44,374 bases of DNA from Perkinsus olseni (lineage: Eukaryota > Perkinsozoa > Perkinsida > Perkinsidae), in contig JABANP010000441.1 of the NCBI GenBank assembly GCA_013115135.1, forward strand, positions 1 to 44,374, read 5' to 3'. Positions 469 to 44,374 of the stretch are shown in pieces (positions within the stretch are counted from its first letter, which is position 1; every line of letters begins with the position of its first letter). Under the pieces are notes generated by a model. That model was not told the DNA's origin. It worked only from the letters and a program-made list of their open reading frames with translations, and did no database searches. The position numbers and the translations under genes were made by a program.

Positions 469-2706
469 CTACGCGGTTAGGCACCCTTCAGGACCGCTTA
501 CCCGCGACCTCAGTCTCAGGGGAATTACTGGGGTTGAGCACTGCGACCACATGTCACCGAGGTCGACCCCCAAGCCCCTAGACAGACGATCGGCGAGCCA
601 GTTTTCCTTTGACTTGGTGTACGTGGTGTTGAGATCACCCCTGAAATGGCCGATCCAGACGCCCACGGCCCGCAGAATGGCGGCGAGACCGGGAGCTGGC
701 GAGTAGAGCTTTTCCAAGGCTCCAACCACGGCCGATTTGTGACAGTGGAGAACGACTGGATTTCAGACTCCACAACCCTGGGCATCCGAAGTCGGTTCTC
801 AGGAGCCGGCTAGACGTAAGGTGCATACGGCCGCCAGCAGCTCGTACAAAGCAATGTCCCTATGTGACGGAGACTGATCGGAGGAGTTACCGTAGCGACG
901 GACCCAGCTGCGGACAACCGGGTCGTCCGTACTCGAACGAAACCAGCGGCCGTGGAGGCCGTCCGAGATCCAACCAGCCAGGAAATCTACTGATGCGTCG
1001 GATGCCCCAAATAGGAGCTTGCGGGATTCGACAGTGGGTGATGTTGGTGCTCGGGGCCGCCTCACAACTTGCAGCCAGAACCGGATAGCCTTCAGGCTCT
1101 TAGAATCCTCCGACAGTTTGATGGTACCGAGGGGCCTGCCAGCCTTCTTCTTACGCTCAAAGGTATTCAGGAGAGCGTATGAGGGTTGCAGGTAACCTTT
1201 CAGCTGGCGCGTCAGCTGAGTGGCGAAGATCAGCTTGCCGAGGGCTTCCAACTTCGGCGCTTCCACTCGGCGTTTGTCGTCGAATTCGGCCAGCAGATCC
1301 CTTATGCCGGCTCAGATATCATCATGGACTACGACAGAGGGACCCGCCGTGGACGACACCGACACCTCGAAGCCTATGTACTTGACCGATTTGACCCCGA
1401 GCGTACATTTTAGTTAAGCCGTCTGTATATTCAGCACTTCCCACACTAGCACGGCCAAGCTGCAGGCTAGCCAATACATCTTTCTGCGAACGGCCAGCAG
1501 GCCGTCGTCGATGTAGAGCAGTGACAGGCACTTCTCGTGGGTCAGTATCCAGCGTAATAGAGCTCCGATTAGCCGTACCACCCCGGCGCTCCCCCTACAC
1601 CAGTGGTATGGGGATACTGCCGCTCCGAACGGCAAGGCTTTGCTCTCGAAGACTTCTTGGCTTAGGCGGGCCGACGTCCGAGGACGCTCGGACTCAGCTA
1701 GAAAGAGGTACTTATATGCCCCCGTAATGTCGAACTTGAAGAGCAGGAAGTCGTCTTCTTCGTCGGGCTGGGGCGCCGGGCCGTGGCAACCGCATGCCGC
1801 AGCCGCCTCTCCGGAACGACCGTCCGACTCAAACAGATCCCACAACACCGCTGATATATCACAGGCTCTTGGCAGCGAGCAGGTCTCTGTAAGCTGGCAG
1901 CTCCCATTCAGGGAGCTGGCCGTGTGGTCTTCTATTAATCTGTGCGAGCCATCGCCCTTCCTTAGAAGGGCCATGCGAGCATATAGGCGGTTGGGGTTCT
2001 TCTGGGCCTCGTCTAACGACATTTCGGTCATCCTTCCCAGACGGACCTCTTGCCGTAACAGAGTCAAGCACGTCTCTGGATTGGCCTCCACCGACAGGAA
2101 ATTCCTGTGGGCCTTTGTCAAGTGAAACACTTCCATCTCTCTGTTCACCTGAGTTTTGGACTTGGCCTCCGGGAGGACGCCTGACGGCTTCAGAGGACTT
2201 TCGACGCCGAGACTGAGCCCCTCGTCGATTTCCCTGAAGACCACGGCATCCGGTACCTCGAGCGCTTGACAGAAGGCCCAACCCAACTCAGCGCGGACCG
2301 GGCTACCCCAAGCGGCCGTCCTGGGTGAACAACCAAGGGCTGTACAAAGTCTCGGGACTAGCCGTTCGGCCGCTCTGCCGACGACCTCGGATACCGCTGT
2401 GACATCCTCCTCCGTGGCAGAGACGCAGAGGTGACCCAGACCTCTCGACCTCACGGGATTCGCTGAGGAAAATATTGGCGAGAGTATCACCTGCCGGGCA
2501 GCACTTCGTGGCAGCCGTGGCGGAAGGCAGGGCCGCTAACACCCCCGTGCCGTCGCGAAAACCCTGGGGTCCATCTTTCTGCGCCTCAAGTCCAGCCCGG
2601 AGCTGTGCAACTCCTCAACATGACGCTTGAGAGACGGGTGCGCCGTAATCTCGTGACCGCTCCACTGCTTGGTTAGTTCCTCAGGTTCTTTGCCGACGTG
2701 ACTATT
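469..2706 (-). pseudogene. Reverse transcriptase-RNase H of YR retroelement
   Basis: One reading frame runs from about 2706 to 799 and is interrupted by TAG near 2538, TAA at 1416-1414 and TGA at 1314-1312. RT motifs are visible: FKFDITGAYKYL (motif A aspartate), LPFGAAVSPYHW (motif B) and LLYIDDGLL (YxDD motif C, near 1500). Downstream, FGASDASVDFLAGWI and ALYELLAAV match the first RNase H acidic motifs. After a further frame change the tail at 729-469 has the typical DIRS-type RNase H ending, KENWLADRLSRG. It would copy the element RNA to DNA in nucleus or cytoplasm. The stops and the frameshift near 760 make it non-functional. Confidence 0.75.
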
Positions 2707-5960: not shown

Positions 5961-6144
5961 ATTAATCCGGGATTGAGGGAACTCAACAAGATAACTTGAG
6001 CCAAGATACAGATACCTCTCCTCTAGTGCGCAGGACCTCTAAAGTACTCAAAGCACGGATACCAGATGATCGGCTATGAGAACAAAAGCGCACGCCCGAA
6101 AGCGCTCGCGTATAGAGCGACTCCTCTGAAGCATCTCATAATAA
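5961..6144 (-). repeat. 3' LTR
   Basis: Direct copy of 12055-12221. Between them a long stretch including AAAGCGCACGCCCGAAAGCG is identical. This copy has about 26 extra bases near 5968-5993 and lacks four bases (GGCT on the plus strand) inside the spliced-leader-like motif. It directly follows the polypurine tract of the element. Confidence 0.85.
5995..6012 (-). other. Decayed spliced-leader-like sequence in 3' LTR
   Basis: The minus strand reads TCTGTATCTTGGCTCAAG. This is the same motif as at 12068-12089 with an internal four-base loss (GTAGCCATC became GTATC). Its presence in both LTRs shows that the motif belongs to the LTR and was not added once at the 5' end. Confidence 0.7.
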
Positions 6145-6148
6145 TATG

Positions 6149-6155
6149 CCCCCCT
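6149..6155 (-). other. Polypurine tract before 3' LTR
   Basis: The minus strand reads AGGGGGG four bases before the 3' LTR begins. This is the usual site of plus-strand DNA priming in LTR retrotransposons. It follows the end of the integrase frame (6167) by about a dozen bases. Confidence 0.65.
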
Positions 6156-6166
6156 AGGTGGCTTGC

Positions 6167-6850
6167 TCACAAGGAAGCCACCTTCTCTATATCTCTCTGA
6201 GATAAGTGGTTCGAAGAAACATCTAGATGTAAGGTTACAGTATCCTTAAGAGACACCGTAAGAGTGAGCGGCTTGCACTCTGGATCTGAAATCACTCCAA
6301 TATGAAGAGAGCCTTCTGAAGAGATCCATAGTGGAAGCAACCTTTGCTCAGCCTCGTCCAACTTATATTCTTGTACCAAGAAATAACCATCGTTAGTCCA
6401 AGATAATCTTTGACCATAACGGACCACACCATCAGCATCCTTCCAAGCGACGAAATAAGTACTAGTAGGGTTACGAAGTACTCTACGCTTGGTTGGCTCG
6501 GTGAACTCGACAGGTTCGGGACTGGAAGGTAACCTCTTCCTTCCATGATGAGCTGGAACCTCCTCTGTGCTCGACTGCTGCGTCACCGCAGGTCCTCTTT
6601 GAGCAATAGGTTCCTCGGCCTCTATAGAACTTTGAGTTCGTGAAGGATTACCGTCATCATCTTTAATGTGGTCCTTATGGTAGACTTGGACTGAACCATT
6701 GGATAACTTGACCTCGACACATTCCTTCTCGAAGTGACGCGTTATTATCCCCGGAACCCACATTGCGTCGAGCTTATGGGAAGGAGTTTGGTAGACTAAC
6801 ACTTGGCGACCAACTCCGTAGACCGGACGAACAACTGGACTACTGTAGCG
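6167..6850 (-). pseudogene. Integrase C-terminal domain and tail
   Basis: Reading from about 6850 the frame gives VVRPVYGVGRQVLVYQTP and KLDAMWVPGIITRHFE. This resembles the small beta-barrel (GPY/F-type) C-terminal domain of LTR-retrotransposon integrases. It then runs to a stop at 6169-6167, just before the polypurine tract. The last 130 residues hold a YFVAWKDADGVVRYG segment that I do not recognise. It is not an obvious chromodomain. Confidence 0.6.
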
Positions 6851-7254
6851 GATCTACTCTTCTTCCATTCTTCTCTCCAAATTTTAGTCATCTTCTCTCG
6901 GTTCTTATCCAATTTTTTCACAGCGTTGAGAATCATACCACCACGAGTTTCATTCGGGTAGGATAGATACTCTTGGATAGAGTCTATTGTGAGAGCCTGT
7001 TGAGATAAAGATGACATCATCATATTCTCGAATGGTAGCACAGCATCAAATCCGAATACGATTTGGTGAGGAGTAAGTCCAGTAGTCTCGTCGACAGAAC
7101 CGTTCATAGAAGCCTGAATGAGTCTTAGTAGTTCAGGCCATGAACTAGGATTTCGTCCTTGTAGGGAACGGCGTAAACTTCTGGCCAAGTGCAAGAGGGA
7201 CACTTCGTAGAAGCCTCCCGAAGAAGGGTGACGAACTGGGTGAGGTGCTTGCAA
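6796..7254 (-). pseudogene. Integrase core, middle segment after frameshift
   Basis: The frame picks up as HPVRHPSSGGFYEVSL, equivalent to the HPQ.NG.xE stretch of retroviral-type integrases and holding the third acidic residue. It continues with LLRLIQASMNGSVDETTGL and TPHQIVFGF, matching the conserved N...TG.TP..l.fG tail of integrase cores. A second frame change near 6850 separates it from the C-terminal domain. Confidence 0.7.
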
Positions 7255-8489
7255 GAGTAGTATGCGCAGAGCGCATCAAAGGAAAGGGAGATAAGGTTAC
7301 TCCCCAAATCCGTAATCACTGTGGATGGTGCTCTGTAGACCAGAAATACTCCACGCCCCAGTACTCTACAGATCGATGAAGTAGTGATATCACTGAGCGG
7401 AAATAGAAGGCAATAACGACTTAGTAAATCCGTCACAGTGAGTATCCAACGAGCACCACTACTACCACCAGCTTGTATAGCACCCGGTACCAAGGGCCCT
7501 ACCAAGTCGCATCCAATAACCTCGAAAGGTGCCGAAGGGCACCTTAAGTGGCTCTCATGTCGGAGCTTCTTTACGGGGGCAGTTACTAGGCAGGCAGCAC
7601 AAGAACGTACAACACTCTTAATAGACTTGCGCAGCGCAGGGGCCCAGAACAACTTCCGAACGTAACGGTAAGTGACTCCGACATGGCCCCGTATATGATG
7701 ATAATAACTACCAAGTTCACTAAGCAGTGATGGTACTGCCGGACGTGGTAGAACTATCTTCAGAGATTCATCCTCATCCCAAGACTCTACCTTACAAAGG
7801 ACACCGTTGAATAGAATACAGTGTTGTATGTAGTGATAGAGAGAAGGGGGTAGATTCGCTTTGAACGAACTAGGGTCCAGAGACGATTCTAAGGCCTCCT
7901 TAGCTTCTCGAGCTTGTGGGTCGCGATCCTGCTGGTTGATCAAGAACCTTCGGATGACCTCCGACGAGTCTGTCGGACCACGACCGCGCCAAGCTTGAAA
8001 TGATTTATCAAGAATCATAAACTTACATAATGAGGGGATGCTATTAATAGTCGGGATCATCAATGAATAAGGATAATGAAAATCGATAATATCCGATGCC
8101 ATAGTGGGAATCTCACGAGTAGTCGGCTTATCAACTTCACAGCAAATATTCGTGAGAACATTTGACGGTGGAAGGTCCTCTGCAACACGTGAAAGAATAT
8201 CTACTCTATTAATATAAAAAGAATTGTGAGAATGATGAGAGAATGCTACATTCACTCCTAATAATCTCAACTCCTCGACGGCTTCATCAATCGACGATCT
8301 TAATTTCGATATCGACAATTGCTCTATGCCGTGGACCTTACGGGGTGACGAGCGCATGCGACGGATGGAGACCAGACTATCATTGCAGACTTCGACGGAT
8401 TTGAGCGAATTCCACCATTCACTCTGCATCTGATCGATTACTGCAATGAAGGCCATCAACATCCCGTAAAGCTCACGTCGGTTCGCATG
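7125..8489 (-). pseudogene. RNase H end and integrase (zinc-binding and catalytic domains)
   Basis: In the same frame as the upstream Pol, directly after the TAG at 8492-8490. It opens with HANRRELYGMLMAF and later NRVDILSR, typical of the RNase H tail. The integrase HHCC domain is visible as HIRGHVGVTYRYVRKLFW followed by SCAAC. The catalytic core follows with CDLVGPL (first Asp) and VITDLGSNLIS (second Asp). The frame leaves the true one near 7230 and runs into a stop at 7125. The continuing core is in another frame at 7254-6796. Confidence 0.75.
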
Positions 8490-10940
8490 CTAAGTACAAC
8501 CGTAAGGGAAGAGCTTGCTCTCAGTGTAGGCGGAGATCCAACCGGTAGATGGGGATTCAACTGAGCCTGAAAGCTGGCCAGTTGGGACCCATAACTCTAT
8601 TCCATAACCGGTGTTGGACGCATCAACAACAATCTTCAGATCTCGGGCATTCTTAATGAGCGGCACTGCCCCGTTGAGTTGCCGCCATATTACTTCAGCT
8701 GCTTGCAAATGCTTTCGGCATTGCTGCTCCTCCTTGGAGTCAATCTCATCATTCCAATTTCCAGTACAGCGGCCGGCTATCTGCCTCGCTATATCGCAGT
8801 GAGCTCGACATTGTGCTTCCCCAGCTGATCGGGTGATATCGAGATAGCGACCTGCAGCAGCAAAGATCCCTCTTCTAGTCGGCTGAAAATCTCTATTCTC
8901 AATCGGCAGTCTACGGACTGATAATAGTCCTTTAGGGTCCCAGTTCCAGTCGGCGCCCAGCCAACGGCAGAACTGATCCTCTGATTGACCCCATAAACTC
9001 CTCTTACTCTCTGGTAGCTCGAATCCGACTTTGGAGAAGAGGTTGATCATATCCCGGTTCCACATCGATCGAACTTCTTCACTGGGCGATATGATGAGAT
9101 TATCATCCATCACTCGTACTACTTCCACCATAGGAAATTTCGCTCTGAGAATGGCGAATAGGATATCGCCAATACTCTCTAAGGCATTGGGCCCTATTGA
9201 AAGGCCGAAGGCAAGGCGATTAGTAGCCTTGAGAGAGTTGGAGAGACTATCACGGCCGCAATCAATGTAAAGCACTTCATCGACAGCAATTCTATAAAAT
9301 GCCTTACTCGCGTCCATCTGCTCTACAACGGCTTGGGGGTAGAGTTTCGCTCTTAACTCTCTGACTGCCTTCTGAACTGATCGGCGACGGCTTGAACAAT
9401 TTGGGCTTCTGGAATTGTAGCCTCTGAAATCGAGGCATGGGCGGACTGGCGTGGTTTTCGAGTCGCTCAAAGAGCAAACTGGAAAACACGTTGCCCATTC
9501 TACCCTTGGATCTTGTCCTGGATGTAGATCAACTTCGCACCACCATTGCCGATCGAAATACATCTGTAGTTCGGCCGCCCACTTCTCTCTCTGCACCGGG
9601 GTCAATTTACGAATCAGACTATCTGGGCGCCAACTACCTCTGCTCTGCTGTTTCTCTTGCTGGTCAGTTGAACTGAGAGGCCAATCGACCAAAAAGCGAT
9701 ATTGCTGATCATGAGTATCCTTAACCACACAGCCATTAGGATCAGCGATCTCGCATAACTTCTTCAAAGATAACTGATAAGACTGCGCATCTGGTATTTC
9801 GAATATTCCATGATCATAGATCCTCTGCAAAGCCGCATCTAGAAAATTCTCATCTAAAGGTAGTCCATGCAACACTCTCGCAATCTCAGCATCATAGGGG
9901 TCCCGCGAGGTTACCCTCGAGAGATTCCTGGATGACTCCTTAGACTCATCGTCAGCTTCTGCCTGTTCCGAAGGATTCACTCGATATTCATCTTCGTAAA
10001 CAGTAGCCTCAACTTGGGCGAGCTCTATCAGAGGTGCTGCAGTAACCTCCACAGCTGCGACAGTGTTCACAGATGAACTCTCATCACAGCTCCAAAATTC
10101 TTGAAGCTGTTTGCGCAATGAAGCAGCAGCTTCTTCTTCCTCCGTATATATCAATCTCGCTCCTAGAATTCTTAATGCTGCACGACCCAAGATGATGGGA
10201 TATGACAACTCACTTATCACCAACAGTGGCAGCAATACTTCGGATCGAGGCTCTCCGACGTAACAGCGAATAACACATTCCTTTCGCACTATCCGGGCGG
10301 TCCCATTGGCACATGTCACGACCACTGGTTTAATTCTCAAAACCTTGACATCAGTCGATAGTCGATCCACTACTGACTCTCGAATCATGGCCACTGCCGC
10401 CCCTGTATCAATCAATGCTGCAAACTGCTCGCCCGCGATCGAAATCCGAATAGTATCGGGACTTGCTAGTAGTGAAAGAGACAACGCATCCCTCTCAACT
10501 ACTCCCTCCTCAGAACTTCCCGATAGATTCCGATCAACACAACTCAGGTCTACAGCACAGAACGGGGCTACAGAGCGAACAGCACCATCGACTCCCGACC
10601 GAAGCTCAGCATTAGCAGCCGGAGTGGTTGCCTGACTCTGGCGACCAACCTCCACAAGATAGGCTGCAGCCGACTGCTTCGACGATGAGCTGTTCTCGGT
10701 TGCTCTCCCCGCCGTCTGTGTGACCTGACCTGAGGGGAGGGGATTCGGGCAGACATATTGGAGATGCCCGCTCTTGCCGCATCGCTTACACATCGCAGAC
10801 TTAGCACCTAATCGGCAATCCTTCGTAGAATGTCCCAGACCACACACACCACAGCGGCGGTTCATGCCCGCTGGACGTGCAGCCTGACAGAACTTCCAAG
10901 TATGACCCGGCTGCAGACATCGACTGCAGGTTCCGCTGAA
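8490..10940 (-). CDS. Pol: zinc knuckles, protease, reverse transcriptase, RNase H start
   Basis: This frame continues in phase from the Gag TGA to a TAG at 8492-8490; the first internal ATG is at 10865. Three knuckles occur: CSRCLQPGHTWKFC before that ATG, then CGVCGLGHSTKDC and CKRCGKSGHLQYVC. Counting from the ATG, the protease motif LIDTGAAVAMI is near residue 151. RT spans about 420-650, with motif A EQMDASKAF (Asp ~518), LAFGLSIGP (motif B) and VMDD at ~585-588. The usual Tyr/Phe of YxDD is Val here. RNase H begins with IVVDASNTGYGIEL near 745. The TAG cuts RNase H, so the chain is incomplete unless read through. Tyr-to-Val in motif C is unusual and may reduce activity. Confidence 0.85.
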   Translation of the reverse strand, partial: FSGTCSRCLQPGHTWKFCQAARPAGMNRRCGVCGLGHSTKDCRLGAKSAMCKRCGKSGHLQYVCPNPLPSGQVTQTAGRATENSSSSKQSAAAYLVEVGRQSQATTPAANAELRSGVDGAVRSVAPFCAVDLSCVDRNLSGSSEEGVVERDALSLSLLASPDTIRISIAGEQFAALIDTGAAVAMIRESVVDRLSTDVKVLRIKPVVVTCANGTARIVRKECVIRCYVGEPRSEVLLPLLVISELSYPIILGRAALRILGARLIYTEEEEAAASLRKQLQEFWSCDESSSVNTVAAVEVTAAPLIELAQVEATVYEDEYRVNPSEQAEADDESKESSRNLSRVTSRDPYDAEIARVLHGLPLDENFLDAALQRIYDHGIFEIPDAQSYQLSLKKLCEIADPNGCVVKDTHDQQYRFLVDWPLSSTDQQEKQQSRGSWRPDSLIRKLTPVQREKWAAELQMYFDRQWWCEVDLHPGQDPRVEWATCFPVCSLSDSKTTPVRPCLDFRGYNSRSPNCSSRRRSVQKAVRELRAKLYPQAVVEQMDASKAFYRIAVDEVLYIDCGRDSLSNSLKATNRLAFGLSIGPNALESIGDILFAILRAKFPMVEVVRVMDDNLIISPSEEVRSMWNRDMINLFSKVGFELPESKRSLWGQSEDQFCRWLGADWNWDPKGLLSVRRLPIENRDFQPTRRGIFAAAGRYLDITRSAGEAQCRAHCDIARQIAGRCTGNWNDEIDSKEEQQCRKHLQAAEVIWRQLNGAVPLIKNARDLKIVVDASNTGYGIELWVPTGQLSGSVESPSTGWISAYTESKLFPYGCT

Positions 10941-12056
10941 TCATGCCGGGTTGATACCGCTCTTAGAGCTCTCACTTTTCGGACTCGAGGATTGCCCCTG
11001 CTTCAATCCTGCCGAATCTTTTCGCTTCTCCTTTCCCGCCGACTTTCTAAGCTGCCGACTTTCAAAATAAATAGCATTGCGACGTAGCTCCTCAAAGGTC
11101 GCGGACTCGATGGATGGTCCCATGCTCTCCAACGAGTCTAATATACGTGTATGCATGCCCGCTCTGGCACGGATACACTTGTCCAAATCACTGTGCGCCC
11201 TCCCCGTCATCGCTACTACTAATGCACTTTCCATCTCCACACGCGCGAAGGAATCTTCAACTCGCTCCGAATCCAACTGTCTCAATGCCTCCCATCGCTG
11301 CACCATCTCCGAAGACGTGCATGACTCCTTGAACCTCTCGTCAAGATATTCCCAGAGACGCTGCACAACAATCTCGGGCGTCTGCTGATCTCGCTTCAAT
11401 CCCGTACGGACCATCATTTCCAATTCTGATTTGAGAGCGCCCGCGAAATTCCTCATAATATAATAAACCTCTGCCTTCCCTCTCAATCCATAAATCTCAA
11501 TGGCATTCTGAATACGCTCTTTTATCAACCGATACGGGCAGCTATCAGTTGGGAAGCTCCAGGGGGCCGCTTCAACAAGATCCAATTTAAGCCACGAGAT
11601 TGCAACATCACTGCCCTCATTCTTCGCTCGAGTTCCCGAACACAACTTCTCTCTACTCTCTGTAAACCCATCGATTGCTCTCTTCAAATCATTCGGACGC
11701 CCGCTATACCACTGATTGCCCAATCTATACATCGCGGCACATTGCTTGGAAAGATACCGAGCTAAATGCTCGAACCAGACTTCATCAAACCCTTCTAAGA
11801 CTGCAGCATCAAGCATCGATGCATATACAATTTTAGCAACTTCTACGTCCCGATCTGGTTCCCCTTCTTGTAGTTCCCCCCTCCCGGAGACCCACCGTTG
11901 ATACTTCCTTCTTATCTCTGATATCTCCTTCAAGAACTCTCTCGAAGTAGTGCATTCCAAATTGATCTTTTGGACCTCCGCACCAACATCGACGGCAGGC
12001 AGACGGGCCGGGACGACGCCCTCGACTACTCCGGCGAATCCTGCATCGGGTACCAT
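10941..12056 (-). CDS. Gag (capsid-like) of LTR retrotransposon
   Basis: 371 codons from ATG at 12056 (start MVPDAGFAGV) to TGA at 10943-10941. I chose this ATG because the frame further upstream lies in the LTR and has no earlier ATG. The protein is largely helical with a W-containing middle (KYQRWVSGRG; EVWFEHLARYLSKQ) and a basic Lys/Ser-rich tail, as expected for capsid. No zinc finger lies before the stop. A CCHC knuckle begins ten codons after the TGA in the same frame, so stop readthrough would give Gag-zinc finger-Pol. Named as Gag from position and composition, not from a diagnostic motif. Confidence 0.7.
   Translation of the reverse strand: MVPDAGFAGVVEGVVPARLPAVDVGAEVQKINLECTTSREFLKEISEIRRKYQRWVSGRGELQEGEPDRDVEVAKIVYASMLDAAVLEGFDEVWFEHLARYLSKQCAAMYRLGNQWYSGRPNDLKRAIDGFTESREKLCSGTRAKNEGSDVAISWLKLDLVEAAPWSFPTDSCPYRLIKERIQNAIEIYGLRGKAEVYYIMRNFAGALKSELEMMVRTGLKRDQQTPEIVVQRLWEYLDERFKESCTSSEMVQRWEALRQLDSERVEDSFARVEMESALVVAMTGRAHSDLDKCIRARAGMHTRILDSLESMGPSIESATFEELRRNAIYFESRQLRKSAGKEKRKDSAGLKQGQSSSPKSESSKSGINPA
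12035..12055 (-). other. Candidate primer-binding site overlapping the gag start
   Basis: Immediately after the 5' LTR the minus strand reads TGGTACCCGATGCAGGATTC. Its complement would be a tRNA 3' end with CCA, discriminator A, acceptor strand AUCGGGU, T-stem CCUGC, and the conserved C61 and A58 in the right places, about 21 bases in all. The TGG overlaps the Gag ATG by two bases. Which tRNA this is I cannot say; none of the tRNAs in this window matches. Confidence 0.55.
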
Positions 12057-12221
12057 TAATCCGATGACTTGAGCCAAGATGGCTACAGATACCTCTCCTC
12101 TAGTGCGCAGGACCTCTAAAGTACTCAAAGCACGGATACCAGATGATCGGCTATGAGAACAAAAGCGCACGCCCGAAAGCGCTCGCGTATAGAGCGACTC
12201 CTCTGAAGCATCTCGTAATAA
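12055..12221 (-). repeat. 5' LTR
   Basis: Direct copy of 5961-6144, about 167 bases, unusually short for an LTR. On the minus strand it starts near TTATTACGAGATGC and ends GGATTAA just before the TGG of the primer-binding site. It should hold the promoter and transcription start. Its last 34 bases contain the spliced-leader-like sequence. Confidence 0.85.
12068..12089 (-). promoter_or_regulatory. Spliced-leader-like sequence in 5' LTR
   Basis: On the minus strand this 22-base window contains GTAGCCATCTTGGCTCAAG. Against the known dinoflagellate spliced leader (DCCGUAGCCAUUUUGGCUCAAG) it matches at 20 of 22 positions. One of the two differences (C for U at position 12) is, from memory, also seen in perkinsid leaders. 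It lies 12 bases upstream of the Gag ATG at 12056. No GT donor follows it, so this is not a spliced-leader RNA gene. It is either a relic of a trans-spliced RNA captured by reverse transcription or an encoded imitation of the leader. Confidence 0.75.
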
Positions 12222-16132: not shown

Positions 16133-16250
16133 GTCCTAAATATGCTAGCATATTTGTGGACTGACTGAGCCCCGCTCCGCTGCGTCGTGCACTTTCCGTG
16201 CATTCTCTACTTCATACTGTTATTGCCTTTCCCGTCACGGCCAGCGACGA
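16133..16250 (+). repeat. Split direct repeat A1 (5' end of YR element)
   Basis: 118 bases nearly identical to A2 (22364-22481). It starts GTCCTAAATATGCTAGCA; within it AATATGCTAGCATATT is a perfect 16-bp palindrome at the element tip. The palindrome may be the recombinase crossover or binding site. Confidence 0.85.
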
Positions 16251-16515
16251 TTTTTTTTTCTCCATCGACGGCGGAGAAGAGGGACACCAACAGTACCAGT
16301 AAGGACGGTACCAGTAGTATAACGGCTACGGGCGGGGTCTCCCCCAGGGAACAAGGGGTCGGGAAGCGCAGTATGGCTATAACATTCCTCGCGTTTAGTG
16401 CTAATAAATGGGGGGGGATTTCCCCGGGAAACCCAGCCTCGAGGCGGGGCACCCGAAACCACGCAATGGATATCATCGCAGCTGTACCTTCCAACCAGCC
16501 CACCCCTACTTAACC

Positions 16516-22363: not shown

Positions 22364-22481
22364 GTCCTAAATATGCTAGCATATTTGTGGACTGACTAAG
22401 CCCCGCTCCGCTGCGTCGTGCACTTTCCGTGCATTCTCTACTTCATACTGTTATTGCCTTTCCCGTCACGGCCAGCGACGA
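22364..22481 (+). repeat. Split direct repeat A2
   Basis: Copy of A1, including the 16-bp palindrome. It is followed by a short pyrimidine-rich spacer (22482-22510) before B2. Confidence 0.85.
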
Positions 22482-22510
22482 TTTTCTTTTAACCCTCCCA
22501 CCTCCCACTT

Positions 22511-37905: not shown

Positions 37906-37991
37906 CTGTTTGGGTGGAAACAGGTCTTCGTACTTGTAGCCTGGCTCGTCAGTATCGATATCCAGATCAATAAATGATTTTGTGTGCATCA

Positions 37992-38071
37992 TAACAGCTG
38001 CGCGAGTCGAACTCGCGCCCTTTCGGGCTAGCGCCTGAAGCTAGCGCCTTCGACCACTCGGCCAAACTGTC
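37992..38071 (-). tRNA. tRNA-Leu(CAG), unit 1
   Basis: 80 bases. Acceptor GACAGTT pairs with AGCTGTT, A73 follows. Anticodon stem CTAGC/GCTAG encloses TTCAGGC (anticodon CAG). There is a long variable arm, as in leucine tRNAs. The T-arm has one mismatch (GCGAG/CGCGC around TTCGACT). Confidence 0.85.
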
Positions 38072-38572
38072 TCCAAATTCTTCTAATAGATAGCTTTTAT
38101 GCCGTGTAGAGTGTTTGGAGAGATACGACGAATCGATGGCTGTATCTCGGCTCTGAGTCACTCCGTCGCAGACGAGAGGAAGGATCCGAGACATGGACGC
38201 GGCAAACGGGTACTTCAAGAATAGCTTACGACTCGAATACGATGCAACTGCGAGCTCGAAATTTTCCAATAACTCAAGGTCCGGTGCGACTGTGCCCGGC
38301 GTTTCTCTCCAATGCAATGCTGAGTCACTCAACTTGAGTGAGCACGATTCCTCTTTTGTTGACTCTTGGAAGTGGGAGGGGCCCACTTTCGGTTCACAAA
38401 CTCAGAAACCCTACAGATACACGCTGGGTTGCGTGCAGCGGTAAAAGGCCAGGTGAACTCTGCGAGGGAGGCTGCAGCGCACACGCGATAGGAAGGCCCT
38501 ACAAATTGGACCTGCCTGCGAGAACGAACGAGCGGTATCACATCGCATATGCATGATCGAAGCGATTTTCGT

Positions 38573-38635
38573 GGCGCTATCGTCTAGTGGTTAGAGGACG
38601 TCACGTTGTGGCCGGTTCAAATTCGGGTAGTGACT
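38573..38635 (+). pseudogene. tRNA-His(GTG) pseudogene, unit 1
   Basis: It has lost the 11 bases GTGACAACCCC covering the 3' anticodon stem and variable loop, and has two extra bases in the D-arm. The first two acceptor pairs are also altered (GGCGCTA). It cannot fold into a normal tRNA. Confidence 0.8.
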
Positions 38636-38850
38636 TCTATTTGGAAGGGGTGTGTGTTCACACACGCAAATGCCAACATGGCGGTCATGATTCATGACTC
38701 ATGAACACAAAACGAGTCGCCAGTTTGTGGCTCATGGATGCACGAGGCGCTGTCCCGAAATCCTCAGCTTGCCACGGTGAGCACGAGGGTGGTGTAGCGA
38801 GAAGGCAAGAGTCTTACCTGCAGCAAGCCCTACTTGCACTAGGGTGATGT

Positions 38851-38922
38851 GGCTGTGTGGTCTAGTGGTATGATTCGTGCTTCGGGTGCACGAGGTCCCG
38901 AGTTCGATTCTCGGCTCAGCCC
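38851..38922 (+). tRNA. tRNA-Pro(CGG), unit 1
   Basis: 72 bases. GGCTGTG pairs with CTCAGCC except for one T-T. Anticodon stem CGTGC/GCACG around TTCGGGT gives CGG. T-arm CCGAG TTCGATT CTCGG. C73, usual for eukaryotic tRNA-Pro. Confidence 0.9.
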
Positions 38923-39019
38923 TATCCCATTGCAAGTTTCATCTCGCAGCAGGATTCAGCAAGAAATCGTGACCGTGAGCTTCTCGACTATTACGGGACG
39001 AGAACGGTCAATCCAGGTT

Positions 39020-39092
39020 CGATCTCGGTGAGACTCGAACTCACAATCTTTGGTTCCGAAGACCAACGCCTTATCCATTAGGCCACGAGACC
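39020..39092 (-). tRNA. tRNA-Arg(TCG), unit 1
   Basis: 73 bases. GGTCTCG pairs with CGAGATC. Anticodon stem TTGGT/ACCAA around CTTCGGA gives TCG. T-arm GTGAG TTCGAGT CTCAC. G73. Confidence 0.9.
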
Positions 39093-39391
39093 GTAGTACT
39101 TAGCATTTGCGTGACCGTAATACTTAGCATTTGCGTGTGCTCTACAGAGTCTGTAGTACAGACTCTCTGTTTGGGTGGAAACAGGTCTTCGTACTTGTAG
39201 CCTGGCTCGTTGAGTCAGCAATGCGGGCCCAGAGTTCTCATGCATTCGATGGACTTTTCAACAGCGACACCAAGAACTATTCTTTCTGATCAGCATAGTA
39301 CAAATGCGACTCACGCTGTAGCATGGAGCACTACTCTCACAAAGTTCACCAGTATCGATATCCAGATCAATAAATGATTTTGCGTGCATCA

Positions 39392-39471
39392 TAACAGCTA
39401 CAAGATTCGAACTCGCGCCCTTTCGGACTAGCGCCTGAAGTTAGCGCCTTCGACCACTCGGCCAAACTGTC
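39392..39471 (-). tRNA. tRNA-Leu(CAG), unit 2
   Basis: Same gene as unit 1. Anticodon stem CTAAC/GCTAG has one mismatch. T-stem GCGAG/CTTGT uses two G-U pairs. Anticodon CAG. Confidence 0.8.
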
Positions 39472-39972
39472 TCTAAATTCTTCTAATAGATAGCTTTTAT
39501 GCCGTGTAGAGTGTTTGGAGAGATACGACGAATCGATGGCTGTATCTCGGCTCTGAGTCACTCCGTCGCAGACGAGAGGAAGGATCCGAGACATGGACGC
39601 GGCAAACGGGTACTTCAAGAATAGCTTACGACTCGAATACGATGCAACTGCGAGCTCGAAATTTTCCAATAACTCAAGGTCCGGTGCGACTGTGCCCGGC
39701 GTTTCTCTCCAATGCAATGCTGAGTCACTCAACTTGAGTGAGCACGATTCCTCTTTTGTTGACCCTTGGAAGTGGGAGGGGCCCACTTTCGGTTCACAAA
39801 CTCAGAAACCCTACAGATACACGCTGGGTTGCGTGCAGCGGTAAAAGGCCAGGTGAACTCTGCGAGGGAGGCTGCAGCGCACACGCGATAGGAAGGCCCT
39901 ACAAATTGGACCTGCCTGCGAGAACGAACGAGCGGTATCACATCGGATATGCATGATCGGAGCGATTTTCGT

Positions 39973-39997
39973 GTCGCTATCGTCTGGTGGTTGGACG
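39973..39997 (+). pseudogene. tRNA-His 5' fragment, unit 2 (cut by insertion)
   Basis: GTCGCTATCGTCTGGTGGTT continues to GGACG, the acceptor and D-arm of tRNA-His, then unrelated sequence begins at 39998. The gene's 3' part resumes after the insertion at 41034. Confidence 0.8.
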
Positions 39998-41033
39998 CTC
40001 GCGTGCGGCCTTTCGTAGTTGGTTCCCAGAGGCGCAAACTCGTATTAAGTACTCTGCGGTCACTCGGCGGTCCGAGCTGGCTCTTCGGAGCGGCCCAGAG
40101 CCGCTCCGGTAGTCAGGATCGGTGGCTCGCGTGCGCGTACCCGTATACTGCTGATTGGAAGGGGCATGTGCGGGACGCCAGGAGATTCGAGCCGCAGACC
40201 GATGGGGTTGTTCGGTCGCTGTCCTAAAGCGGCTCTTGCGGACCTGGAAGCTTCGGTCGCGACTCACCGAAATGGGCATGTAGCTGGGCATGGGGGGAGG
40301 GGCGAAGTGCCTTATCACGGTCGAAGAAACCGCTTGGCGGAAGGCGAGTGTAAACGACAAGCATGCTCCTCCTGAGGATTGTGGCTCACCGCTGTCATCC
40401 GGGATCCGTCGGCTGGTGGAGACACACCAAATTTATCGGAGGCTCGACAAAAAATTGGTGTGATACAGCCCGGTGGCTATGAATATGGGTGAACTTCTCC
40501 GCCCGCGCAGTCTGCAGGAAGAGCGCCAAAAGACCATATTCATGCATCATAGCACACGTTTGACCTGCCCCATCATTCGCCCCATTAGACATATCCCAAC
40601 GCCCCCAATGCCTCAAAAAATTTCACTGATATCAATGGCTAGATACAGGCACTCCACCTTTAACAAAGCCCTCAATGCCGATGGCTGGCCGCCGTATTAG
40701 CTCTATATGTTTCCCACGTATAATGCCGTTGAGCTCTGATTTCGTTAAATGCGAGTTCGTCCCTTTTGGCGGAGACTGACTGATTGAGAATACAATACCC
40801 GAGATCTGCCGTCTTGAATCCAACGGTCGAATCTTCCCTCTTCTGTCTTACAATCCTGAACCAATTTGCTTAGCTTGAGCGTAGCTTCTCATTCCAGCAA
40901 GATAGTCCGCGGAATATACCCAACACTCTTCTCCACCTTCCTTCTTTCCCCTTTCTTTCTTTCCTCTTTTTCCTTTCTTCTTTTTTTTCTTTTCCCCTTT
41001 TTCCCCTCTCTTCCCTCAGTTTTTGCCCAACTC
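39998..41033. mobile_element. 1036-bp insertion in tRNA-His with 19-bp target duplication
   Basis: Flanked by exact copies of ATCGTCTGGTGGTTGGACG at 39979-39997 and 41034-41052. These are tRNA-His D-arm sequence carrying the same two variants relative to the other units, which marks a target duplication. The insert has a perfect 9-bp hairpin (CGGAGCGGC/GCCGCTCCG near 40085-40107) and a pyrimidine-rich tract (about 40925-41020) near its right end. No coding motif was recognised. The long duplication fits target-primed retroposition more than cut-and-paste transposition. Confidence 0.75.
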
Positions 41034-41098
41034 ATCGTCTGGTGGTTGGACGTCACGTTGTGGCCGTGACAACCCCGGTTCAAATTCGGGTAGTGACT
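41034..41098 (+). pseudogene. tRNA-His 3' part, unit 2
   Basis: Contains the D-arm duplicate, an intact anticodon arm (TCACG TTGTGGC CGTGA, GTG) and the T-arm, but the 5' acceptor strand is replaced by the end of the insertion, so no acceptor stem forms. Confidence 0.8.
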
Positions 41099-41313
41099 TC
41101 TATTTGGAAGGGGTGTGTGTTCACACACGCAAATGCCAACATGGCGGTCATGATTCATGACTCATGAACACAAAACGAGTCGCCAGTTTGTGGCTCATGG
41201 ATGCACGAGGCGCTGTCCCGAAATCCTCAGCTTGCCACGGTGAGCACGAGGGTGGTGTAGCGAGAAGGCAAGAGTCTTACCTGCAGCAAGCCCTACTTGC
41301 ACTAGGGTGATGT

Positions 41314-41385
41314 GGCTGTGTGGTCTAGTGGTATGATTCGTGCTTCGGGTGCACGAGGTCCCGAGTTCGATTCTCGGCTCAGCCC
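41314..41385 (+). tRNA. tRNA-Pro(CGG), unit 2
   Basis: Identical in sequence to the unit 1 gene at 38851-38922. Confidence 0.9.
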
Positions 41386-41482
41386 TATCCCATTGCAAGT
41401 TTCATCTCGCAGCAGGATTCAGCAAGAATTCGTGACCGTGAGCTTCTCGACTATTACGGGACGAGAGCGGTCAATCCAGGTT

Positions 41483-41555
41483 CGATCTCGGTGAGACTCG
41501 AACTCACAATCTTTGGTTCCGAAGACCAACGCCTTATCCATTAGGCCACGAGACC
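41483..41555 (-). tRNA. tRNA-Arg(TCG), unit 2
   Basis: Same sequence and fold as 39020-39092, anticodon TCG. Confidence 0.9.
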
Positions 41556-41854
41556 GTAATACTTAGCATTTGCGTGACCGTAATACTTAGCATTTGCGTG
41601 TGCTCTACAGAGTCTGTAGTACAGACTCTCTGTTTGGGTGGAAACAGGTCTTCGTACTTGTAGCCTGGCTCGTTGAGTCAGCAATGCGGGCCCAGAGTTC
41701 TCATGCATTCGATGGACTTTTCAACAGCGACACCAAGAACTCTTCTTTCTGATCAGCATAGTACAAATGCGACTCACGCTGTAGCATGGAGCACTACTCT
41801 CACAAAGTTCACCAGTATCGATATCCAGATCAATAAATGATTTTGCGTGCATCA

Positions 41855-41934
41855 TAACAGCTACAAGATTCGAACTCGCGCCCTTTCGGACTAGCGCCTG
41901 AAGTTAGCGCCTACGACCACTCGGCCAAACTGTC
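41855..41934 (-). tRNA. tRNA-Leu(CAG), unit 3
   Basis: As unit 2 with one D-arm change (GGTCGTAGG for GGTCGAAGG). Anticodon CAG, with the same stem mismatch. Confidence 0.8.
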
Positions 41935-42436
41935 TCTAAATTCTTCTAATAGATAGCTTTTATGCCGTGTAGAGTGTTTGGAGAGATACGACGAATCGAT
42001 GGCTGCATCTTGGCTCTGCGTCACTCCGTCGCAGACGAGAGGAAGGATCCGAGACATGGACGCGGCAAACAGGTACTTCAAGAATAGCTTACGACTCGAA
42101 TACGATGCAACTGTGAGCTCGAAATATTCCAATAACTCAAGGTCCGGTGCGACTGTGCCCGGCGTTTCTCTCCAATGCAATGCTGAGTTACTCAACTTGA
42201 GTGAGCACGATTCCTCTTTTGTTGACTCTTGGAAGTGGGAGGGGCCCACTCTCGGTTTCACAAACTCAGAAACCCTACAGATAGACGCTGGGTTGCGTGC
42301 AGCGGTAAAAGGCCAGGTGAACTCTGCGAGGGAGGCTGCAGCGCACACGCGATAGGAAGGCCCTACAAATTGGACCTGCCTGCGAGAACGAACGAGCGGT
42401 ATCACATCGGATATGCATGATCGAAGCGATTTTCGT

Positions 42437-42497
42437 GTCGCTATCGTCTAGTGGTTAGGACGTCACGTTGTGGCCGGTTCAAATTCGGGTAGTGACT
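42437..42497 (+). pseudogene. tRNA-His(GTG) pseudogene, unit 3
   Basis: 61 bases, with the same 11-base loss (GTGACAACCCC) as unit 1 but a normal acceptor strand. The anticodon loop is present without its 3' stem. Confidence 0.8.
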
Positions 42498-42712
42498 TCT
42501 ATTTGGAAGGGGTGTGTGTTCACACACGCAAATGCCAACATGGCGTTCATGATTCATGACTCATGAACACAAAACGAGTCGCCAGTTTGTGGCTCATGGA
42601 TGCACGAGGCGCTGTCCCGAAATCCTCAGCTTGCCACGGTGAGCAAGAGGGTGGTGTAGCGAAAAGGCAAGAGTCTTACCTGCAGCAAGCCGTACTTGCA
42701 CTGGGGTGATGT

Positions 42713-42784
42713 GGCTGTGTGGTCTAGTGGTATGATTCGTGCTTCGGGTGCACGAGGTCCCGAGTTCGATTCTCGGCTCAGCCC
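42713..42784 (+). tRNA. tRNA-Pro(CGG), unit 3
   Basis: Identical to unit 1; anticodon CGG. Confidence 0.9.
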
Positions 42785-42881
42785 TATCCCATTGCAAGTT
42801 TCATCTCGCAGCAGGATTCAGCGAGAATTCGTGACCGTGAGCTTCTCGACTATTACGGGACGAGAGCGGTAAATCCAGGTT

Positions 42882-42954
42882 CGATCTCGGTGAGACTCGA
42901 ACTCACAATCTTTGGTTCCGAAGACCAACGCCTTATCCATTAGGCCACGAGACC
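42882..42954 (-). tRNA. tRNA-Arg(TCG), unit 3
   Basis: Same as units 1 and 2; anticodon TCG. Confidence 0.9.
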
Positions 42955-43253
42955 GTAATACTTAGCATTTGCGTGACCGTAATACTTAGCATTTGCGTGT
43001 GCTCTACAGAGTCTGTAGTACAGACTCTCTGTTTGGGTGGAAACAGGTCTTCGTACTTGTAGCCTGGCTCGTTGAGTCAGCAATGCGGGCCCAGAGTTCT
43101 CATGCATTCGATGGACTTTTCAACAGCGACACCAAGAACTCTTCTTTCTGATCAGCATAGTACAAATGCGACTCACGCTGTAGTATGGAGCACTACCCTC
43201 ACAAAGTTCACCAGTATCGATATCCAGATCAATAAATGATTTTGCGTGCATCA

Positions 43254-43333
43254 TAACAGCTGCGAGACCCGAACTCGCGCCCTTTTAGACTAGCGCTTGA
43301 AGCCAGCGCCTTCGACCACTCGGCCAAACTGTC
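43254..43333 (-). tRNA. tRNA-Leu(CAA), unit 4
   Basis: The anticodon stem CTGGC/GCTAG encloses TTCAAGC, so the anticodon is CAA, not CAG. The T-arm GCGAG TTCGGGT CTCGC is fully paired, better than in the other units, and the acceptor is unchanged. Confidence 0.85.
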
Positions 43334-43397
43334 TCTAAATTCTTCTAATAGATAGCTTTTATGCCGTGTAGAGTGTTTGGAGAGATACGACGAATCG

Positions 43398-43754
43398 ATG
43401 GCTGCATCTCGGCTCTGCGTCACTCCGTCGCAGACGAGAGGAAGGATCCGAGACATGGACGCGGCAAACAGGTACTTCAAGAATAGCTTACGACTCGAAT
43501 ACGATGCAACTGTGAGCTCGAAATATTCCAATAACTCAAGGTCCGGTGCGACTGTGCCCGGCGTTTCTCTCCAATGCAATGCTGAGTCACTCAACTTGAG
43601 TGAGCACGATTCCTCTTTTGTTGACTCTTGGAAGTGGGAGGGGCCCACTCTCGGTTTCACAAACTCAGAAACCCTACAGATAGACGCTGGGTTGCGTGCA
43701 GCGGTAAAAGGCCAGGTGAACTCTGCGAGGGAGGCTGCAGCGCACACGCGATAG
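43398..43754 (+). CDS. Conserved open frame in tRNA spacer, coding status unsure
   Basis: 118 codons (ATG at 43398) between tRNA-Leu and tRNA-His. The matching region of unit 3 (from 41999) is also open to the same stop, with few changes. In units 1 and 2 a one-base loss (TTCGGTTCAC against CTCGGTTTCAC) shifts the frame. No domain recognised. The conservation may only reflect array homogenisation. The antisense frame is equally long, so I rate this low. Confidence 0.2.
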   Translation: MAASRLCVTPSQTRGRIRDMDAANRYFKNSLRLEYDATVSSKYSNNSRSGATVPGVSLQCNAESLNLSEHDSSFVDSWKWEGPTLGFTNSETLQIDAGLRAAVKGQVNSAREAAAHTR

Positions 43755-43835
43755 GAAGGCCCTACAAATTGGACCTGCCTGCGAGAACGAACGAGCGGTA
43801 TCACATCGGATATGCATGATCGGAGCGATTTTCGT

Positions 43836-43907
43836 GTCGCTATCGTCTAGTGGTTAGGACGTCACGTTGTGGCCGTGACAACCCCGGTTCAAATCCGGGT
43901 AGTGACT
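43836..43907 (+). tRNA. tRNA-His(GTG), unit 4, the only intact copy
   Basis: 72 bases. GTCGCTA pairs with TAGTGAC (one G-U). Anticodon stem TCACG/CGTGA around TTGTGGC gives GTG. T-arm CCCGG TTCAAAT CCGGG. T at position 73, where eukaryotic tRNA-His usually has A. Confidence 0.85.
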
Positions 43908-44130
43908 TATATTTGGAAGGGGTGTGTTCACCCACGCAAATGCCAACATGGCGGTCATGATTCATGACTCATGAACACAAAACGAGTCGCCAGTTTGTGG
44001 CTCATGGATGCACGAGGCGCTGTCCCGAAATCCTCAGCTTGCCACGGTGAGCAAGAGGGTGGTGTAGCGAGGAGGCAAGAGTCTTACCTGCAGCAAGCCG
44101 TACTTGCACTAGGATGATGTGGCTGTGTGG

Positions 44131-44202
44131 TCTAGTGGTATGATTCGTGCTTTGGGTGCACGAGGTCCGGAGTTCGATTCTCGGCTCAGCCCTATCCCAT
44201 TG
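44131..44202 (+). tRNA. tRNA-Pro(TGG), unit 4
   Basis: The loop is TTTGGGT, so the anticodon is TGG where other units have CGG. One T-stem pair is lost (CGGAG/CTCGG), otherwise as in unit 1. Confidence 0.8.
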
Positions 44203-44289
44203 CAAGTTTCATCTCGCAGCAGGATTCAGCGAGAATTCGTGACCGTGAACTTCTCGACTATTACGGGACGAGAGCGGTAAAACCAGGTC

Positions 44290-44362
44290 CGATCTCGGTG
44301 AGACTCGAACTCACAATCTTGGGTTCCGAACACCAACGCCTTATCCATTAGGCCACGAGACC
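44290..44362 (-). tRNA. tRNA-Arg(TCG), unit 4
   Basis: Anticodon TCG retained. The anticodon stem TTGGT/ACCCA has one mismatch and the loop starts GTTCGGA instead of CTTCGGA, so this copy may be decaying. Confidence 0.7.
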
Positions 44363-44374
44363 GTAATTCTTAGC

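Follow-up and report, generated by a model that had tools for sequence, protein, structure and literature searches.

Host spliced leader sequence within the long terminal repeats of several diverged retrotransposon families of Perkinsus olseni

Introduction

In dinoflagellates, host spliced leader (SL) sequence is described as having returned to the genome through reverse transcription of trans-spliced RNA, leaving retrogenes with relict leaders (Slamovits and Keeling 2008, as described in PMC3229502; also PMC12014239). In Perkinsus marinus more than 100 intron-less SL sequences, most of them with an initial T and arranged in tandem, have been reported (Zhang et al. 2011, PMC3101222); neither 'retrotranspos' nor 'transposable' occurs in the text of that paper. 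Here we describe an SL sequence inside both long terminal repeats (LTRs) of a retrotransposon in Perkinsus olseni, and its counterparts elsewhere in the same genome (61.5 Mb, 968 contigs). The element lies on a contig of 44,374 nucleotides (JABANP010000441.1, assembly GCA_013115135.1, forward strand), the whole of which was analysed and is called the window below. Judged from the sequence, the host SL exon within the LTRs of several diverged families is most likely, though far from certainly, the outcome of host trans-splicing of element RNA, after which the leader would be copied back into DNA and act as the R region of the LTR. Host trans-splicing exchanges the 5' end of an RNA and should break the terminal redundancy on which LTR elements depend; a leader residing in the LTR would solve this problem. 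No description of an SL inside LTRs was found among the open-licence papers listed by full-text searches, several of them capped, so that one could exist below the caps or outside that literature; no paper there combined spliced leader, strand transfer and retrotransposon.

The leader in the window element

The window element occupies positions ~5963 to 12220 of the minus strand and has direct terminal repeats around a coding interior, as an LTR retrotransposon does. Its 5' LTR (12057..12220, minus strand; the last base may be 12056) is composed of U3, the SL and a shortened U5, and is repeated as the 3' LTR at 5963..6146 (minus strand; outer end uncertain by one base). The pair shows 96% identity across 159 aligned bases, and ATGGT (or TGGT) is found at both outer sides as target-site duplication. 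The SL slot of the 5' LTR (12068..12089, minus strand) reads TCT followed by GTAGCCATCTTGGCTCAAG, SL nucleotides 4-22 being exact. This 19-mer, at 12068-12086 of the minus strand, is the sole match in the window at up to three mismatches, with 0.01 expected. An earlier note on this DNA had reported a spliced-leader-like motif in the 5' LTR and a shortened version in the 3' LTR, and both are indeed present: the 19-mer ends 12 bases before the in-frame ATG at 12056, and the slot in the 3' LTR (5995..6012, minus strand) reads TCTGTATCTTGGCTCAAG, the leader minus 4 bases. The SL occupies the matching internal place of the two LTRs. The 5' LTR is atypical in lacking ~20 post-SL bases that are present in other copies; because of this loss the gap between SL and ATG is 12 bases only in the window copy and 32 bases in other copies of the family. 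Absence of the motif from other family members had been named as a reason for abandoning the idea, and this was not what was found: the exact 19-mer is present in 15 of the 19 loci of the family that were compared and one has the 4-base deletion, while one is interrupted by a contig end and two are fragments without the SL region.

Genome-wide occurrence and host SL RNA genes

The 19-mer occurs in 120 exact copies in the genome and its reversed pattern in none, which rules out a chance origin of the motif. All but one of these copies (119) were located, and 114 sites were read together for classification; the located sites outside this set are four LTRs of the window family (L009, L015, L016 and L018) and one array site. 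The 114 sites split into 35 SL RNA genes (ACC, motif, GTAAA) and 79 others. The genes, mostly in tandem arrays, carry the exon ACCGTAGCCATCTTGGCTCAAG followed by GTAAA, with ACC before the 19-mer in 35 of 35. This exon is identical to the P. marinus leader PmaSL1. Most of the genes share the intron start GTAAATATCAGGTCC, which fits the SL RNA primer of the P. marinus study (PMC3101222). At the 79 other sites the SL is followed by TTATC, TTCTG, GTCTC, ACCTT and others, and the combination of GT donor and conserved intron that marks an SL RNA gene is absent. The window motif itself was considered as an SL RNA gene, which is ruled out by the missing SL intron, and as an insertion beside SL genes, which is ruled out by its position within LTRs, preceded by U3. 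As to the surroundings of the genes, L057 and L087 (contigs C41 and C270) lie in tandem units of ~3.4 kb with U1, U2, U4 and U5 small nuclear RNA genes on the opposite strand, and L084-L086 (C268) in tandemly repeated units that contain tRNA-Glu and tRNA-Gly genes, likewise on the opposite strand.

Families of LTRs that carry the leader

Compared by the 60 bases upstream of the SL (78 long enough), the 79 non-gene sites form 20 clusters, 11 of them with at least two members; by the 45 bases downstream (77 long enough) they form 19. The thresholds were scores of 50 upstream and 40 downstream, the maxima over 1500 shuffled pairs being 31 and 26. Between most clusters the SL is the only common sequence and the flanks differ. 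Related flanks were found downstream for F1/F2, F4/L063 and L117/L118 and upstream for F4/F7. Seven families, comprising 46 of the 79 sites, have a same-strand pair with the SL in both copies (F1, to which the window element belongs, F2, F5, F6, F7, F8 and the C450 family). Pairs on C482 and C602 were excluded from this count, as the one on C482 is possibly a segmental duplication. LTR ends could be read in F1, F2 (TGTTGAG...CTCAACA), F7 (TGTCACGG...CCACCACA) and F8, and the same-strand pairs of F5 (C438), F6 (C584 and C856) and the C450 family add to these. Paired LTRs are nearly or fully identical (F1 on C206 100%, F7 99.6%, F8 98.9%), with the SL at one place in the LTR, and its equal internal position in both LTRs is what would be expected of an R repeat. 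F3 (13 sites) and F4 (4 sites) are similar in look, with no pair seen, and seven sites are single. At the single sites (L083 on C267, L077, L100, L121, L126, L130 and the second site in L090) the SL is followed by an ATG and preceded by unique sequence; they are possibly retrogenes tagged with the SL, or else rare families of elements. A repeat array lies next to L083.

Signals of LTR retrotransposons surround these repeats. A target-site duplication, TGAAC, flanks the F2 element on C108, while duplications are unclear for F7 and F8. In F1, F2, F7 and F8 the 5' LTR is followed by TGG... and the 3' LTR is preceded by a G-rich tract. The stretch after the 5' LTR of F7 (TGGTGACAGCTGTGC; L071, L081) resembles, as a primer-binding site (PBS), the complement of the 3' end of a tRNA-Leu encoded near window position 38000, with two differences over the 12 bases compared, and F8 shares the first part of it. 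Several families apparently have a gag start codon that spans the LTR/PBS joint (window 12054-12056; L060, L081, L187), the final A of the LTR and the initial TGG of the PBS giving ATGG. The ATG that opens the open reading frame (ORF) lies within the LTR in F7, and in F5 it is present in each copy of the C438 pair. An ATG follows within 60 bases of the SL at 63 of 75 sites, a weak signal given the estimate that random stretches of 60 bases often hold one.

The coding regions show how far the families have diverged. Polymerase segments of F1, F5, F6, F7 and F8 share 21-38% identity, the comparisons of F1 with F5 and F1 with F8 not being significant, and the F6 and F8 polymerases align with that of F7 at E 3e-50 and 6e-108. 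All polymerase ORFs of F5-F8 have a [YF]xDD box (YVDD, YMDD or FVDD). In Pfam searches of F5-F8, RVT_1 stayed below the cut-off in F7 (E 4.5e-5) and F5 (0.0013), F6 gave no match and F8 only a weak RNase H match.

Variation at the start of the leader

The 79 non-gene sites start with T in 54 cases, A in 15, G in 8 and C in 2, whereas each of the 35 SL genes starts with ACC. Within families these first nucleotides are variable as well. A set of 74 younger copies, drawn from six families, was compared with the majority bases of each family: departures occur at 17 of 222 sites for nucleotides 1-3, at 53 of 2935 for U3 and at 41 of 1731 for U5. This excess, 3-4 times the flank variation, has Fisher p values of 4e-6 (against U3) and 1e-4 (against U5), which overstate independence since the copies are related. 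Of the 87 columns, that of nucleotide 3 varies most (10 of 74 copies), and the F2 variants of nucleotides 1-3 are AAC, AAA, AAG, AAT, ATC and GAA. Relative to the copies found by U3 alone (see below), the set omits 23 older F2, F3 and F6 copies, picked by hand according to how far their U3 has diverged, and includes F1, F4 and F5 in addition; as the F4 and F5 copies were found via the 19-mer itself, it was not used for nucleotides 4-22. A first figure of 32/198 against 145/2302 in U3 was discarded, being inflated by an F6 reference with a minority base.

A leader copied at the DNA level from SL genes should start with A, while error-prone copying of a capped RNA end need not give this start. 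Work on cDNA has met SL 5' ends that vary or are absent: incomplete leaders have been attributed to 5' modifications impeding the reverse transcriptase (PMC2868825), and the dinoflagellate mRNA leader has been written DCCGTAGCC, its first letter D denoting T, A or G (PMC7245778). The three nucleotides agree between both LTRs in the pairs on C206, C714 and C621.

Families shared with P. marinus

Some of the families are common to this genome and P. marinus. Three groups of primers for the P. marinus SL-like sequences of Zhang et al. (2011) match families found here: the L1-like primer with a score of 64 (maximum of 200 shuffles 32), the S-like primer with 43 (maximum 29) and the L2-like primers with 24 and 29 (maxima 20 and 24). 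The S-like family has a 21-nt SL in P. marinus and a 22-nt SL here (L105, L116). An exact 21-nt SL occurs once in this genome, in an F6 LTR whose leader has lost one base. The difference in SL type between the species, resting on one family and one base, is suggestive only.

Copies with altered leader joints

In three F5 sites on two contigs (L098, L099, L131) GTCTCAG is missing after the SL, which is joined right after a downstream AG. Similarly, the F3 site L129 lacks 46 bases ending in GGGAG, with the SL joined just past the AG. Such copies are what re-splicing to a downstream acceptor would give. On C602, one copy has the SL from nucleotide 4 abutting DNA that matches no U3 and no other locus compared, and a same-strand copy 6.3 kb downstream has U3, SL and U5; the copy without U3 looks as if it was made from an RNA 5' end. 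A possible target-site duplication at C602 (GTCG) is too short for reliance. Exchange of U3 and U5 between families was also considered: F4 and F7 share a related U3 and not the downstream sequence, and the C602 copy has no U3, and in none of these cases is a swap proven. F7 contains a 7-base repeat, GCTCAAG.

Proposed mechanism and alternatives

The following cycle would account for these observations. Element RNA would be transcribed from U3 or farther upstream, and the spliceosome would join the capped host SL to an AG acceptor, as a rule the terminal AAG of the encoded SL; because this AAG is used, the SL sequence would be regenerated unchanged each round. The resulting RNA would start with SL-U5-gag and end with U3-SL-(part of U5)-poly(A). 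Minus-strand strong-stop DNA, ending in a copy of the SL, would then jump to the SL near the RNA 3' end, and error-prone copying of the modified cap-proximal nucleotides would leave variable bases at the U3/SL joint. Since an RNA that starts with the host SL could complete strand transfer only with an SL in the 3' LTR, the SL would be kept in the LTR and matched to that of the host. A more tentative extension, rather doubtful at present, is that the SL serves diverged families as an interchangeable, host-supplied R, rewritten from host SL RNA in every cycle and tracking changes of the host SL, in which case strong-stop DNA of one family, or of a host mRNA, could jump to the RNA of another family.

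Several findings speak against this mechanism. Of the 150 integrase loci that were scored (from 316 candidates), only 12 have an exact same-strand SL within -9 to +4.5 kb, which makes a general trait look unlikely; this list is a poor census, as it omits the F5-F8 elements too. The AG-joined copies are few in number and can also be short deletions with AG microhomology. The P. marinus SL-like loci yielded no clear product in rapid amplification of cDNA ends (RACE) or on blots (Zhang et al. 2011, PMC3101222), and tandem truncated relict SLs of the dinoflagellate type gave 0 exact matches genome-wide. The LTRs of a pair disagree at nucleotides 2-3 on C108 (AAC, AAA) and C289 (ATC, AAG), although copying errors made before integration predict agreeing LTRs, and part of the variation at nucleotides 1-3 is therefore later or from another source. 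Finally, in 66 copies found by U3 alone (F2, F3, F6), in 64 of which the alignment spanned the SL, the conservation of nucleotides 4-22 does not exceed that of the adjacent U3 (differing sites 74/1233 against 145/2302, p 0.77) and is only slightly above that of U5 (74/1233 against 133/1536, p 0.009). The idea that the SL is held more constant than U3 inside a family is thus not supported, and decay after insertion looks neutral. Left out of every count were U3 matches stopping before the SL (L150, L153, L164, L165, L181, L182; C729:1-114; C63:104303) and five distant F3 matches.

The earlier note had offered two origins for the leader, a trans-spliced element RNA that was reverse-transcribed with the leader becoming fixed in the LTR, or an element that encodes its own leader. 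The present data support the first, which applies to several families beyond the case described in the note; the second accounts for less, because the LTR copies mostly start with T where the host leader starts with A, nucleotides 1-3 vary and the SL types of one family differ between species. In its full form this second, unlikely account has the U3 promoter start the RNA exactly at the encoded SL, with no trans-splicing, the leader having been captured once per family and kept by selection. The SL is present in both LTRs and, in F1, F6, F7 and F8, precedes an ORF of more than 200 codons by 29-69 bases, a place that would suit the start of R; the P. marinus loci without detected RNA (PMC3101222) agree with this account. 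A usual T and three varying bases at the encoded start are odd for a selected mimic, however, the two SL types of one family are left without account, and the first capture would still require trans-splicing.

Rather less probable still is a single ancient capture in an ancestor of the elements, the SL being kept for another role (in translation, as an Sm-like site or as a promoter element) with no trans-splicing now. F1 and F2 share the PBS and the start of gag, and F4 and F7 a related U3, so some families are kin, and the SL has been retained across polymerases as different as those compared above. Between most families, however, the other LTR sequence has diverged past alignment and the SL is still identical to the one now used by the host, and one family differs in SL type between species. 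That the SLs are passive relicts, left by trans-spliced RNA that was now and then reverse-transcribed and playing no role in replication, is very improbable: it draws on the relict SLs known from dinoflagellate retrogenes (PMC3229502; PMC12014239) and on the decay of the SL in old copies at the pace of its neighbours, yet it is opposed by an SL at one LTR place in nearly identical pairs of several families and by the lack of exact tandem relicts genome-wide.

If host trans-splicing of element RNA takes place as proposed, part of the replication cycle of these elements would be supplied by the host, the orphan Perkinsus SL sequences of 2011 would be explained, and a route would exist for SL-tagged RNAs back into trans-splicing genomes.

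Other features of the window

The PBS-like stretch TGGTACCCGATGCAGGATTC (12036..12055, minus strand) directly follows the 5' LTR of the window element and overlaps the gag ATG (12056). The same stretch follows the LTR in families F1 and F2, and no primer tRNA for it was found in the sequence examined. The gag-like ORF (10941..12056, minus strand) has its in-frame ATG at 12056, with the open frame extending upstream through the LTR to 12170, and matches no Pfam family above cut-off. It is followed by an ORF for zinc knuckle, aspartyl protease and reverse transcriptase (8490..10865, minus strand; PF13975, PF00077 and PF13650 above cut-off, RVT_1 at E 3.4e-6 and zf-CCHC_3 both below) and by an integrase ORF (7125..8462, minus strand; Integrase_H2C2 above cut-off, rve at E 9.3e-7 below). 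A G-rich stretch resembling a polypurine tract (6147..6158, minus strand) precedes the 3' LTR, as it does before other F1 3' LTRs. The domain order is thus protease, reverse transcriptase, integrase, with RVT_1 and rve under the Pfam cut-offs; the Ty3/Gypsy-like order includes an RNase H too, which Pfam did not detect here. Of 7,994 scored candidates, none was a relative of the window polymerase at E 1e-3, and the PDB held no match to it at 0.01.

A second terminal-repeat element lies on the plus strand, with direct repeats of 127 bases (16133-16259 and 22364-22490, 98.4% identical, ~6.2 kb apart) that contain the palindrome AAATATGCTAGCATATTT and no SL, and it served as SL-less control. Weak matches to reverse transcriptase and the phage-integrase N-terminal domain (E 0.14 and 0.031) were found between its repeats; it is possibly a tyrosine-recombinase (DIRS/PAT-like) retroelement. 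A further reverse transcriptase fragment (1414-2490, minus strand; RVT_1 E 5.4e-5, YIDD) has no SL 19-mer nearby at up to three mismatches. Positions 37950-44374 hold a tRNA gene array (Leu, Pro, Arg, His) with repeats 95-98% identical.

Comparison with known systems

The relict SLs of dinoflagellates are described as truncated, in tandem and located before host genes (PMC3229502; PMC12014239), whereas those of P. olseni are single, near full length and in both LTRs of elements bearing a reverse transcriptase. A likeness exists with Cer1 of Caenorhabditis elegans, a Ty3/Gypsy LTR retrotransposon whose spliced mRNA is reported to be trans-spliced to SL1 (PMC3315495). The host leader on the RNA of a parasite also has a parallel in a dinoflagellate virus with the dinoflagellate SL at its 5' end, for which molecular mimicry has been speculated (PMC10235124). 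That parasite is an RNA virus, while in P. olseni the leader is carried by LTR elements.
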